From Nocardioides caldifontis (lineage in GTDB: Bacteria; Actinomycetota; Actinomycetes; Propionibacteriales; Nocardioidaceae): DNA of 64,000 bases. The translations under genes were made by a program, and so were the position numbers. Positions 3,595-61,557 of this stretch are shown piece after piece; position 1 is the stretch's first letter; each line of letters opens with the position of its first letter. The notes beneath the pieces are model-generated. The model made no database searches. It worked only from the letters and a program-made list of their open reading frames with translations, and was not told where the DNA came from. The stretch spans positions 806,001 through 870,000 of the forward strand of contig NZ_VHIB01000001.1 of the NCBI RefSeq assembly GCF_008087345.1, written 5' to 3'.

Positions 3595-4970
3595 TGCCCA
3601 CCTGGGTCCAGCTGGTCTACCTGCTCTGCGCCGTCGGGTTCATCCTCGCGCTCAAGGGGCTCTCCGGTCCGCGCACCGCCCGGGCGGGCAACCTCATCGG
3701 CGCCGCTGCCGCGGTCGTCGCCTGCGCGCTGCCCTTCTTCTACGTCGAGGGGCTCGACCACATCCCGCTCATCCTGCTCGCGATCGTGGTCGGCACGGTC
3801 GGCGGCGTCTTCGGGGCCCGCAAGGTCCAGATGACGCAGATGCCGCAGATGGTGGCGCTGTTCAACGGCGTCGGCGGTGGGGCGGCGGCGCTCGTCGCGC
3901 TGCTCGAGCTCGAGCACATGGTCGACGGGGTCACCCCCGGGTTCGACCTCGCCGCGACCGCCTTCACGATCGTGGTCGGCTCGATCTCCTTCTCGGGCTC
4001 GCTGATCACCTTCGCCAAGCTCCAGGAGCTGATGACCTCGCGGCCGGTGGTCTTCCCCGGCCTGCCCGTCGTCTTCGGGGCGCTGGTGCTCGGCGCGCTC
4101 GCCCTCTCGGTGCTGGTCGTCACCGACGCCTCGGTGCCGCTCGGTGTGGTGCTCTGCCTGGTCGGCCTCGCGTTCGGTGTGCTGCTCGTGCTGCCGGTCG
4201 GCGGCGCGGACGTGCCGATCGTGATCTCGCTGCTCAACGCCTTCACCGGTCTGACCGTGGCCGCGGGCGGCTACATCCTCGCCAACACCGTGCTGCTCGT
4301 CGGCGGCACGCTCGTCGGCGCCTCCGGCACGTTCCTCACGCTGCTGATGGCGCGGGCGATGGGCCGGTCGGTGGCGAACATCCTCTTCGGCGCCCTCAAG
4401 GGCGGGTCGACCCTCGGGGCCGGCGAGGCGTCCGACCGGCCGGTGAAGTCCGCCGGGCCGGAGGACATCGCGATCCTGCTCGCCTACGCGTCCCGGGTGA
4501 TCATCGTCCCGGGCTACGGCCTCGCGGTCGCGCAGGCGCAGCACACCCTCCGCGAGCTCGTGGACCTGCTGATCGCCCGCGGCGCGAAGGTCGACTACGC
4601 CATCCACCCCGTCGCCGGCCGGATGCCCGGGCACATGAACGTCCTCCTCGCCGAGGCGCAGGTGCCCTACGAGCAGCTCGTCGAGATGGACGACATCAAC
4701 GGCGAGTTCAAGCACACCGACGTCGTGCTGGTCGTCGGCGCGAACGACGTCGTCAATCCGGCCGCGAAGACCACCCCCGGCGCCCCGATCTACGGGATGC
4801 CGATCCTCAACGCCGACGAGGCCGAGCAGATCGTCTTCATGAAGCGCTCCATGCGGCCCGGGTTCGCTGGGATCGAGAACGAGCTCCTCTTCGACCCGAA
4901 GACCACCCTGCTCTTCGGGGACGCCAAGGACTCGCTCGGCAAGCTGCTCAAGGCCGTCGAGACCCTCTGA
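3594..4970 (+). CDS. pntB: NAD(P) transhydrogenase subunit beta
   Basis: The 458-residue protein has about nine membrane helices (residues 1-260) and then the NADP(H)-binding domain III. The signature GYGLAVAQAQ near residue 305 is the dinucleotide loop. HPVAGRMPGHMNVLLAEA and VGANDVVNPAA are the conserved domain III segments. Length and motifs match full-length PntB. It is the last gene of the pnt operon; upp converges on it 31 nt away. Confidence 0.96.
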   Translation: MPTWVQLVYLLCAVGFILALKGLSGPRTARAGNLIGAAAAVVACALPFFYVEGLDHIPLILLAIVVGTVGGVFGARKVQMTQMPQMVALFNGVGGGAAALVALLELEHMVDGVTPGFDLAATAFTIVVGSISFSGSLITFAKLQELMTSRPVVFPGLPVVFGALVLGALALSVLVVTDASVPLGVVLCLVGLAFGVLLVLPVGGADVPIVISLLNAFTGLTVAAGGYILANTVLLVGGTLVGASGTFLTLLMARAMGRSVANILFGALKGGSTLGAGEASDRPVKSAGPEDIAILLAYASRVIIVPGYGLAVAQAQHTLRELVDLLIARGAKVDYAIHPVAGRMPGHMNVLLAEAQVPYEQLVEMDDINGEFKHTDVVLVVGANDVVNPAAKTTPGAPIYGMPILNADEAEQIVFMKRSMRPGFAGIENELLFDPKTTLLFGDAKDSLGKLLKAVETL

Positions 4971-59194: not shown

Positions 59195-59935
59195 GTGCCC
59201 GACCCCGTTCCCGCCCCGCCGGCCGACCCGCTGGGCGACCTCGCCGCCCTGGAGGGCGTCGGGTCCGCGATGGCCGCGACGCGCGACGGCGTCGACGCGC
59301 TGCTGCGGGACCGCGGGCTGCGGCGCACCGCTCCCGAGCTGACCGCGGAGTCGTTGCTGCGCGGGGCGCACGCGAGCGCCGTGCTCGAGGGCTCCACCTC
59401 CTCGCTCGAGGAGCTTCGCGACGGCACCGGCGACGCCACCGCGGCCGCCGCCGTCCGCATCTCCACCGACCTGCTCTCGCTGGTGCCGGTGCTCGCGCAC
59501 TCCCCGCGACAGGTGTTCGCCCGGCTCCACACGCTGGCCGCCAAGGGCGAGGTCGCCGACGACCAGCTCGGCCGGCCGCGCGGGGGAGTCGGCGCCGAGC
59601 GGCTCTCGGCGCTCGGCCGGTTGCTGCTCGAGCCGACGGCGGCGCCCGCGCTGGTCGTCGCGGCGGTGGTGCACGCCGAGCTGCGGACGGTCGCGCCGTT
59701 CGTGTCCCACAACGGGCTCGTCGCCCGGGCCGCGGAGCGGCTGCTGCTCGTCGCGCGCGGGGTCGACCCCACCTCGCTGACCGTGCCGGAGGCCGGCCAC
59801 CTCGCGCTACGAGGCGCGTACGAGTCGAACCTCAGGGGGTACGCCGAGGGCGGGCTCGCCGGGGTCCACGGCTGGCTGCTCTACGCGGCCGAGGGGTACA
59901 CCGCAGGAGCGCAGGCCAGCCCGCTGCGGGGCTGA
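59195..59935 (+). CDS. Fic-fold pseudoenzyme (Rv3662c / SCO3559 type)
   Basis: The 246-residue helical protein has the layout of a class II Fic protein. The inhibitory-helix motif (S/T)xxxE(G/N) is SAVLEG at residues 61-66. The Fic core at 159-190 has APFVSHNGLVAR where active enzymes have HPFxxGNGR. The catalytic His is Ala, and the anion-binding Gly and the Arg are lost. AMP transfer is therefore unlikely. Databases often call this family oxidoreductase, which the sequence does not support. It lies beside the HAD/ssd locus as in mycobacteria. Confidence 0.7.
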   Translation: MPDPVPAPPADPLGDLAALEGVGSAMAATRDGVDALLRDRGLRRTAPELTAESLLRGAHASAVLEGSTSSLEELRDGTGDATAAAAVRISTDLLSLVPVLAHSPRQVFARLHTLAAKGEVADDQLGRPRGGVGAERLSALGRLLLEPTAAPALVVAAVVHAELRTVAPFVSHNGLVARAAERLLLVARGVDPTSLTVPEAGHLALRGAYESNLRGYAEGGLAGVHGWLLYAAEGYTAGAQASPLRG

Positions 59936-59945
59936 GCGGAGATCA

Positions 59946-59972
59946 GGGTGGTTGAGCATGTCGAAACCACCC
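59946..59972. repeat. REP-like inverted repeat
   Basis: GGGTGGTT and AACCACCC flank GAGCATGTCGA. On the minus strand this reads GGTTTCGACATGCTCAACC, a short sequence that I recall as scattered through many actinobacterial genomes in intergenic places. Only one copy occurs in this window. Confidence 0.55.
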
Positions 59973-59983
59973 CGGACATGCGA

Positions 59984-60148
59984 GCGGCACTCCGCGTAGG
60001 GAGTGCCGCCGCTGACACACGAAGCATGGCTACCAGGCGTGCACACTGGCTGTTGGCCCGGGTGAACCCGAGCTCAACGCCCTCTCGGAAGGGTGGATCA
60101 CCGCGTGGGTACCAAGCTCGTGTGTAGGTCTTGAGTTGTTCTGGTGCT
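59984..60148 (-). ncRNA. Ms1/6S-like RNA (MTS2823, scr3559 position)
   Basis: The convergent gap between the Fic-like gene and the HAD gene has a lower GC content and no frame. On the minus strand it has a promoter (TTGCCC, 17 bp, TACAAA) and a predicted start near 60148. It ends in a 10-bp terminator hairpin (59984-60009). The two RNA ends pair: ACACACGA (minus, 60125-60118) with TCGTGTGT (60022-60015), extending through GC, TGG and TACC to 60108/60034. The centre holds CCCT..AGGG and CGGGT..ACCCG hairpins. M. tuberculosis and Streptomyces carry Ms1/6S-like RNA at this exact position and orientation. Ends are approximate. Confidence 0.75.
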
Positions 60149-60154
60149 GGTTCT

Positions 60155-60183
60155 TTTGTACGCCTCAGACCGGATCAGGGCAA
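60155..60183 (-). promoter_or_regulatory. Promoter of the Ms1/6S-like RNA
   Basis: Minus-strand -35 TTGCCC (60178-60183) and -10 TACAAA (60155-60160) with a 17-bp spacer. This is one of the most consensus-like promoters in the window. Confidence 0.7.
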
Positions 60184-60296
60184 GGGTCCCGAGCCACCCG
60201 GTTCGGGGTCCGACCACCCTGGACCGGAGCCGGATCCCCTGCTCCTGCTGGGCTCCGCCCGTTCGAACCGGCGGTCAGGCGACCTCGAGCCGGCGG

Positions 60297-61202
60297 TCAC
60301 GCACGCTCGAGCCGGCGACGGGCGCCGAGGTAGATCGCGCTGCCGACGACCACCGCGGTGCCGGCGGCGAGCGCGGCGAGGGCGCCCCGGTTCTCGGGGA
60401 GCCGCACCCGGGCGCGCAGCGCCACGGGCCGGTCGAAGAGCAGCACCGGCCAGCCGCGCTCCTTCGCGATCCGGCGGAGCTCCTTGTCGGGGTTGACCGC
60501 GTGCGGGTGGCCGACGACCTCCAGCATGTGCACGTCGGTGATCGAGTCGGAGTAGGCGAAGCTCCGTGACAGGTCGTAGCCCCGGAGCTCGGCGAGCTCC
60601 TCGATCGCGGACGCCTTGTTCTCCCCGTAGGCGTAGTAGTCGATCTTCCCGGTGTAGCGGCCGTCCTCGATCGCCAACCGGGTCGCGATGACCGCGTCGA
60701 CCCCGAGCAGCTCGCCGATCGGCTCGACCATCTCCGCTCCGGAGGCCGACACGATGATCACGTCGCGCCCGGCGAGCTGGTGGTCCTCGATGAGCGAGAC
60801 CGCTTCGTCGTAGACCATCGGGTCGACGATGTTGTGGAGGGTGTCGGAGACGATCTCGCGGACGGTGTCGACGTTCCAGCCGGTGACCATCTCGGAGAGG
60901 TAGGCGCGCATCTTCTCCATCTGGTCGTGGTCCGCGCCGCCGACCGCGAAGACGAACTGCGCGTAGGCGCTGCGGAGCACCGAGCGCCGGTTGATCAGCC
61001 CGCCGGCGTAGAACGACTTGCTGAACGCCAGCGCGCTCGACTTGGCGATGATCGTCTTGTCGAGGTCGAAGAACGCCGCCGGGCGCCCGCCGGAACGTCG
61101 CAGGGTCGGACGGGGCTGCTCCCCGGACCCGGCGACCGTCTCGCTCGCGGCGTCGCTGGACACCGTCCCAGTGTTGCCGATGGGCCGATCGTGCGCGGGC
61201 AT
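60297..61202 (-). CDS. HAD-IB family phosphatase, SerB-like (Rv3661 / SCO3558 type)
   Basis: The 301-residue protein has HAD motif I FFDLDKTIIAKSS (Asp nucleophile and general acid), motif II in VIIVSASGAEM, the Lys of motif III in GENKASAIEELAE, and motif IV AYSDSITDVHMLE. A C-terminal membrane helix (LAALAAGTAVVVGSAIYLGA) anchors it. The family is linked to morphological development in Streptomyces. Candidate substrates are phosphoserine-like or phosphate monoesters. Two structured RNAs flank the gene. Confidence 0.9.
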   Translation of the reverse strand: MPAHDRPIGNTGTVSSDAASETVAGSGEQPRPTLRRSGGRPAAFFDLDKTIIAKSSALAFSKSFYAGGLINRRSVLRSAYAQFVFAVGGADHDQMEKMRAYLSEMVTGWNVDTVREIVSDTLHNIVDPMVYDEAVSLIEDHQLAGRDVIIVSASGAEMVEPIGELLGVDAVIATRLAIEDGRYTGKIDYYAYGENKASAIEELAELRGYDLSRSFAYSDSITDVHMLEVVGHPHAVNPDKELRRIAKERGWPVLLFDRPVALRARVRLPENRGALAALAAGTAVVVGSAIYLGARRRLERA

Positions 61203-61298
61203 CTCTCCACATCCGCTCGCGTGCCCAGACCGGTCGTGCCGCCCCGCGAGCCTCCGGCGACGGGGCCGTGGCTGGACTACACTGGTGGTCCAGAACTC

Positions 61299-61329: not shown

Positions 61330-61475
61330 GAGCACAAATCTCTGACATGCCTGTTGCCACAAGGTAACGTCCGACTCAAGGTTCCAGCGATCCCCCCTCG
61401 CTGGTAGCGGTCCCGGCTTATCCCCCCAATGCCTGGACCATGGGGCCCCTGGCTGTCCCCCCTGGCCAGGGGCCC
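61330..61475 (+). ncRNA. 6C-type small RNA (B11 position)
   Basis: Two hairpins present runs of six C in their loops: CCAGCGA-TCCCCCC-TCGCTGG (61384-61404), then GGC-TT-ATCCCCCC-AA-T-GCC shortly after. An 11-bp hairpin at 61443-61475 (loop TGTCCCCCCTG) follows as terminator. C6 loops in paired hairpins define the actinobacterial 6C RNA family. In M. tuberculosis that RNA (B11) lies between Rv3660c (ssd) and Rv3661 (HAD) on the ssd strand, as here. The 5' end is approximate. The rest of the 533-nt gap holds the repeat array. Confidence 0.8.
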
Positions 61476-61557
61476 GCCCCGTCTCCAGGGTCGTTCCCCT
61501 TCCGCCCCTTCTGCGCCGAACCGCCCGTTGTGGCCGCGTTTGCGCCGTGGGGTTGTC

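Follow-up and report, generated by a model that had tools for sequence, protein, structure and literature searches.

A probable compact Ms1-type RNA in the gap between a HAD-IB hydrolase gene and its convergent neighbor in Nocardioides caldifontis

The window analyzed here is a stretch of 64,000 nucleotides of Nocardioides caldifontis DNA. Within it, a HAD-IB hydrolase gene on the minus strand and a gene on the plus strand converge on a short gap, in which we place a small RNA that would share the direction of the HAD gene and converge with the gene on the other side. The features of the locus are as follows:

59195..59935 (+): convergent partner gene, by position the "oxidoreductase/Fic" neighbor of the published Ms1 synteny
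59981..60148 (-): predicted Ms1-type small RNA of ~168 nt, with its presumed 5' end at 60148
59984..60009 (-): terminator-like hairpin with a 10-bp perfect stem, a 6-nt loop and no U tract (from the sequence)
60013..60126 (-): conserved core matched by the covariance models R1 and R2
60015..60023 (-): 3' arm of the closing stem (from covariation)
60028..60042 (-): conserved box 2, GCACGCCUGGUAGCC (from the alignment of 25 sequences)
60101..60113 (-): conserved box 1, GGUACCCACGCGG (from the alignment of 25 sequences)
60117..60125 (-): 5' arm of the closing stem (from covariation)
60155..60160 (-): -10 element TACAAA (60160-60155; direct reading)
60178..60183 (-): -35 element TTGCCC (60183-60178; direct reading), spacer of 17
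60297..61208 (-): gene for a HAD-IB hydrolase (TIGR01490, 198.4 bits, cut-off 98.3), upstream of the RNA, start codon uncertain
61406..61481 (+): candidate 6C RNA (RF01066, 44.8 bits, gathering threshold 47, E 1.1e-4), across the HAD gene from the RNA

Neither Pfam nor NCBIfam gave a match at E 0.01 for the protein of the partner gene (59195-59935). A TIGR03815 neighbor was found at the window locus as well as TIGR01490, and a CpaE-type neighbor is part of the Ms1 context. A 6C RNA was called in six of the eight HAD loci scanned, and the order of 6C RNA candidate, HAD gene and Ms1 in the window is the order 6C, SCO3558, scr3559 described around SCO3558 (PMC8539372).

The G+C content of 59984-60148 is 63.6%, compared with 72.9% across the window, as the original prediction of an Ms1/6S-like RNA at this site had pointed out. 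Folding of the minus strand of 59980-60160 gave -78.3 kcal/mol, compared with -59.8 (sd 4.2) for shuffles (z -4.37), and none of 200 dinucleotide shuffles folded as well as the RNA; the internal hairpins that had been proposed are present in this predicted fold. The closing stem consists of eight perfect pairs (60125-60118 with 60015-60022) and one G-U pair, which is what became of the claim that the RNA ends are complementary over 8 bp plus an extension.

Homologous DNA was found in 28 of 58 genomes, the organism's own included, and 27 of these 28 loci carried the box 1 sequence GGTACCCACGCGG with at most two mismatches. The other locus (L035), in which the box 1 motif was absent, appears spurious and was rejected; two further loci (L032 and L036) were left out as divergent. 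The resulting alignments A1 and A2 contain 25 sequences including the window, A2 being a MAFFT alignment built without structure. The A2 consensus structure has 29 pairs, with 93.6% of cells paired, and in slid controls of A2 the paired fraction fell to 32-44%. The number of A2 cells changed on both sides was 71, compared with 22.9 in shuffles, and 71 was reached by none of 500 shuffles; on a second measure, which counts further pair types, 17 of the 500 shuffles did at least as well as the alignment. Covariation in the closing stem had been named beforehand as decisive, and changes on both sides were found in seven of its nine pairs among the 25 sequences, and in nine of nine pairs in class-wide alignments that were themselves fitted to R1. 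The closing stem has 15 G-U cells against 9 A-C cells, which weakly favors the minus strand.

Box 1 has its second G and ACCCACGCG invariant in the 25 sequences and reads GG.AcCCACGcg across 39 class-wide rows. In box 2, GCACGC, TG, TA and CC are invariant in the 25 sequences, and the 39 class-wide rows read GcaCGC.TGgt..Cc. The pairing between the boxes is without covariation support because GGTACCCACGCGG and GCACGCnTGGTAnCC barely vary in the 25-sequence alignment. A constraint on the boxes beyond the needs of pairing would fit a protein contact, without being a demonstration of one. The two boxes are also partly complementary to each other, because of which the antisense strand at one locus (L117, 3000-3110, minus) gave a weak model match of 21.7 bits.

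The hairpin that follows the core was present in all 27 loci scanned, and in A1 both partners of its pairs show changes. The original prediction had described it as a 10-bp terminator hairpin. The stem can be read directly and stands. As a terminator the hairpin is a candidate: it lacks a U tract, and a generic scan found no U-tract terminator in 59900-60300, the hairpin being left unscored for want of T. Just past this hairpin lies a 19-base near-palindrome, GGTTTCGACAnGCTCAACC (59950-59968), with 10 exact copies genome-wide, the one in the window included, and none for the reversed control; two of the copies start 26 bases apart on one contig (C4).

The checks first proposed for this RNA, covariance models and an alignment of relatives, were extended with a model of the RNA's own family. 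This model, R1, was built from A2, whose 25 sequences are the window's own, 23 more from its family and one from its order. In the organism's own genome R1 found a single copy, the window's, at 111.2 bits and as the sole match at E 0.01. Across the class it matched 136 of 394 genomes, the own genome included, with one match each. In a phylum sample of 149 genomes it matched six, each of them a member of that class; as at least 12 genomes of that sample belong to the class, up to 137 genomes outside it had no R1 match. Among 30 HAD loci of the class, 21 matched at E up to 0.011, and the nine negative at that threshold include other HAD copies. Two Streptomyces-like loci (L048 and L057) had the R1 match just downstream of the HAD gene.

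Gene order was compared in a named set of 80 HAD loci retained out of 177, which include Nocardioides, Marmoricola, Pimelobacter, Kitasatospora, Streptomyces and Nocardioidaceae. R1 matched the first stretch of 78 of the 80 loci at E up to 0.038 (80 rows, less two second weak hits in L192 and L175), the Streptomyces and Kitasatospora matches being weak at 21 to 34 bits. All 80 named relatives have the RNA no farther than 3.5 kb from the HAD gene, five of them (L148, L153, L172, L195 and L200) at a separation of 2.3-3.5 kb. The strong copies in L195 and L200 lie 3.5 and 3.1 kb downstream, on the strand of the HAD gene and beside the partner. A homolog of the partner could be identified in 77 of the 80 loci and was convergent to the HAD gene every time. 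In Nocardioides flavescens (L198) the RNA (3840-3954, minus) is inverted between the HAD gene and the partner, with its promoter and hairpin kept. Outside this set, in 50 loci around R1 matches (1.5-3 kb on each side), the HAD gene was not found in 18, the partner in eight, and neither in four (L108, L109, L112 and L116). The partner protein was also observed to adjoin the RNA often in other families.

Ms1 has been reported to lie near the origin and to be transcribed towards it in 84% of cases (PMC4191392). With dnaA standing for the origin and some genome lengths rounded, the RNA gene points along the shorter arc to dnaA, 0.17-0.67 Mb away, in all 19 genomes examined, although these are not 19 independent events because the genomes are related; in the organism's own genome the distance is 0.52 Mb on one contig. 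Together with the gene order, this bears out the claim that synteny and strand match those of MTS2823/Ms1 and scr3559.

The minus-strand promoter of the original prediction, TTGCCC-17-TACAAA, was read directly and is conserved among relatives. It was counted in 60 of the 78 loci, one of them titled only as Propionibacteriales, after 17 Streptomyces/Kitasatospora loci and one locus with a cut-off hit (L153) had been left out. A hexamer at most one mismatch from TACAAA was found in 45 of the 60, compared with 6.6 expected from shuffled letters. All 45 of these loci also have the TTG of the -35 element, at a spacing of 17 in 41 and 18 in four, the search having tried spacings of 16-19. Despite a generic sigma-70 scan that found no promoter in 59900-60300, this conservation across named relatives makes the promoter credible. 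The distance from the -10 element to the core is 28 nt in the window, with a median of 22 in the 45 named loci. An A sits six bases past the -10 element in the window and likewise in L039, where TACAAAGGAACC is followed by ACGGAAG at the point where the match to the Rfam Ms1 model (RF02566) begins. Since the start of M. smegmatis Ms1 was mapped to an adenine (PMC4191392), by analogy we infer that transcription in the window starts at A60148.

The search with 6S and Ms1 models that had been suggested for the window gave a divided outcome. RF02566 did not match 59700-60500 at E 10 or the organism's own genome (G000) at E 0.01, the 6S models of Rfam did not match 59700-60500 at E 10, and Rfam at gathering thresholds called neither Ms1 nor 6S in the window. 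The link to Ms1 was made through the model of the RNA's own family. In the class search of 394 genomes, RF02566 matched 39, of which 25 passed its cut-off, and among the matches listed none was in another member of the window's family. Family f7, which we take to be mycobacterial, accounts for 34 of these 39 genomes. Rfam called Ms1 in L039, L040 and L042 (229-236 bits) and in L119 and L120 (310-313 bits). In all three of the loci tested, the R1 match (E 4.5e-7 to 1.1e-5) fell within that of RF02566: 972-1162 in 928-1228 (L039), 976-1166 in 931-1231 (L040) and 2411-2600 in 2345-2645 (L042). The two models also coincide in place in three of the five genomes outside f7 that RF02566 matched (G078, G253 and G366, of which G253 and G366 are in g51, presumably Streptomyces). 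The remaining two, G301 and G439, had no R1 match. R1 matched an f7 locus, L044, only at E 0.58, and the class-wide R1 search (394 genomes, E 0.01, strict filters) matched no f7 genome.

A second model, R2, was built from A4, a class-wide alignment of 41 sequences fitted to R1, from which two sequences of alignment A3 are absent (the antisense hit in L117, and L104, a duplicate of L089). R2 matched the window at 60013-60126 with 96 bits, the next best match being 10.7 bits. The compact form exposes a shared core, and one covariance model consequently matched 194 of 394 class genomes, compared with the 39 matched by RF02566 at the same E-value. R2 matched 32 of the 34 RF02566-positive f7 genomes, four of which are in its training set, and its place was inside the RF02566 match in 11 of 11 f7 genomes with places among the matches listed. 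It also matched G301, although not G439, and it missed some R1 matches (G086 and G322). In the phylum sample R2 matched 10 of 149 genomes; the one outside the class (G532, E 0.004) is about what chance would give. The connection between R1 and f7 rests on the locus searches and on R2, which includes four f7 sequences. In the middle of RF02566, a closing stem of 9 bp is followed by a helix of 5 bp with GG/CC and then by CCA/UGG, one mismatch and GCG/CGC. The helices of R1, whose structure was derived from the Nocardioidaceae alignment, come in the same order. We treated the failure of RF02566 on the window as a limit of that model, with membership resting on homology; Rfam is reported to yield Ms1 candidates only from close relatives of mycobacteria (PMC9130861).

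Like the predicted RNA, the mycobacterial Ms1/MTS2823 of RF02566 lies downstream of a HAD-IB gene, has a TACAAA promoter and is transcribed towards the origin (PMC4191392). The two also share the closing stem, both boxes, the order of the central helices and the terminator hairpin, and the long hairpin with a conserved central part that is expected of Ms1 was found. They differ in that the window RNA would be ~168 nt long, compared with 304 in mycobacterial Ms1, with a predicted 23 nt from its start to the closing stem where mycobacterial Ms1 has a 65-nt 5' domain, and with 58 nt between the boxes compared with about 137 in RF02566. Absent from it are the 5' domain (positions 1-65 of the RF02566 model) and most of the apical arm; unlike mycobacterial Ms1, it also has no U tract and is not scored by RF02566. 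The core spans mostly 110 to 140 nt in the families listed, about 128 nt in g51 and about 190 nt in most of f7, which makes the mycobacterial form the long exception in this sample. The original prediction had expected a short member of about 165 nt, and the predicted length indeed falls below the range of about 230-304 nt of studied members. Length is not decisive, because PMC9130861, in the sections consulted, assigns Ms1 to the Nocardioidaceae without giving lengths.

The scr3559 RNA of Streptomyces coelicolor lies in the same gap, between a SCO3558-type HAD gene and its neighbor, and at 227 nt by RACE (PMC9130861) is longer than the window RNA. The window core was also detected in Streptomyces-like loci and in named Streptomyces and Kitasatospora loci, and box 2 starts with GGACGC in Streptomyces-like rows and with GCACGC in the window family. 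The strand of scr3559 is given as minus in PMC8539372, whereas the opposite strand follows from the RACE ends reported in PMC9130861. In L048 and L057, the core and a TACAAAGG promoter are on the strand of the HAD gene, which favors PMC9130861 over PMC8539372.

A rod-like fold with paired ends is also that of 6S RNA, as in Ms1 (see also PMC4191392). The window RNA could act as 6S RNA does, on RNA polymerase with the primary sigma factor (sigma-A/HrdB) bound. There are precedents, as binding of scr3559 to RNAP-HrdB has been cited (PMC8539372) and the CoRP RNA of Corynebacterium binds both forms of the polymerase (PMC11077062). We nevertheless consider this unlikely, because the 6S models failed on 59700-60500 even at E 10, and because scr3559 was found with the RNAP core and not with HrdB (PMC9130861). 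The element directly follows the HAD gene on its strand and has a strong hairpin at its end, which could suggest a different origin, in which the structure is a 3' UTR or terminator in the HAD mRNA or that of the convergent gene and there is no separate RNA. Its own conserved -35 and -10 elements, its distance of 2.3 to 3.5 kb from the HAD gene in five of the 80 named loci, and its inversion together with its promoter in L198 render such a cis element very improbable.

Two further readings, on which the locus holds no RNA gene at all, have next to no weight. Sequence rich in G+C folds easily, and partly complementary boxes with an antisense match (L117 minus, 21.7 bits) might point to a chance structure or a repeat family; against this stand the z-score of -4.37 and covariation measures that exceed nearly every shuffle, as well as the single match per genome and the confinement of the six phylum-sample R1 matches to one class. 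As for a small protein, the window itself leaves one frame of the 168-nt stretch open, but that frame has a stop in 20 of the 25 sequences. The core lengths differ by 0, 1 and 2 modulo 3 in 8, 9 and 8 of the 25 sequences (window included), and each core frame has a stop in 17 to 20 of the 25. A coding gene in the gap was rejected on this evidence, in agreement with the earlier claim that there is no reading frame.

Based on the agreement of covariation, overlap of R1 and R2 with RF02566 in both directions, neighboring genes including the 6C candidate, and direction towards dnaA, the RNA of the window is very probably a compact homolog of Ms1, and the identity originally proposed is upheld. A promoter at 60183-60155 would drive a non-coding RNA of ~168 nt whose transcript would end at the hairpin 59984-60009. 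The RNA would fold as a rod, with a covarying closing stem, two near-invariant boxes face to face and a short apical part with two hairpins, and would act as Ms1 does. An Ms1 RNA is expected to be abundant in stationary phase and to bind RNAP core that carries no primary sigma factor. Ms1, MTS2823 and scr3559 bind the RNAP core (PMC4191392, PMC9130861, PMC11077062), and by analogy it is likely that the window RNA does so too, although its binding may differ from that of Ms1 because parts of Ms1 are lacking. Expression, the role of the boxes and the effect on the cell are what we infer from these comparisons.

In many actinobacteria Ms1 stands in for 6S RNA, and it was predicted from gene-order phrases in 824 species, including members of the Nocardioidaceae (Nocardioides, Marmoricola, Pimelobacter, Kribbella, Aeromicrobium and Actinopolymorpha) (PMC9130861). 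Gene order was used for this because the S. coelicolor RNA has no BLAST-detectable similarity to M. smegmatis Ms1, the RNAs being called "sequentially unrelated", and because of the limited reach of Rfam noted above (PMC9130861). The RNA of the window was therefore already expected in this lineage; what is new is a core that, judged by sequence, is common to Ms1 RNAs described in those words. Our literature search, with supplements and most subscription papers outside it, found no report of a shared Ms1 core, and PMC9130861 was the one paper in it to mention both Nocardioides and Ms1 RNA. A search for the box strings returned nothing on Ms1 by title; an earlier report in print is possible.

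We speculate, with even chances of being right, that the window RNA is close to a minimal Ms1. On this reading Ms1 RNAs from mycobacteria to Streptomyces would share a core of ~115 nt, whose two nearly invariant boxes, GGnACCCACGCG and GCACGCnUGGUnnCC, would be the contact with RNA polymerase, and the mycobacterial RNA would have gained its 5' hairpin domain and its long arm later. The compact RNA would be a small tool for finding what the RNA polymerase core recognizes, and a model of the shared core offers a test, independent of synteny, of which actinobacteria have Ms1. If the near-minimal core reading is correct, sequence would unite Ms1 in a single family, which could be detected in roughly half of the class genomes sampled with no recourse to synteny.
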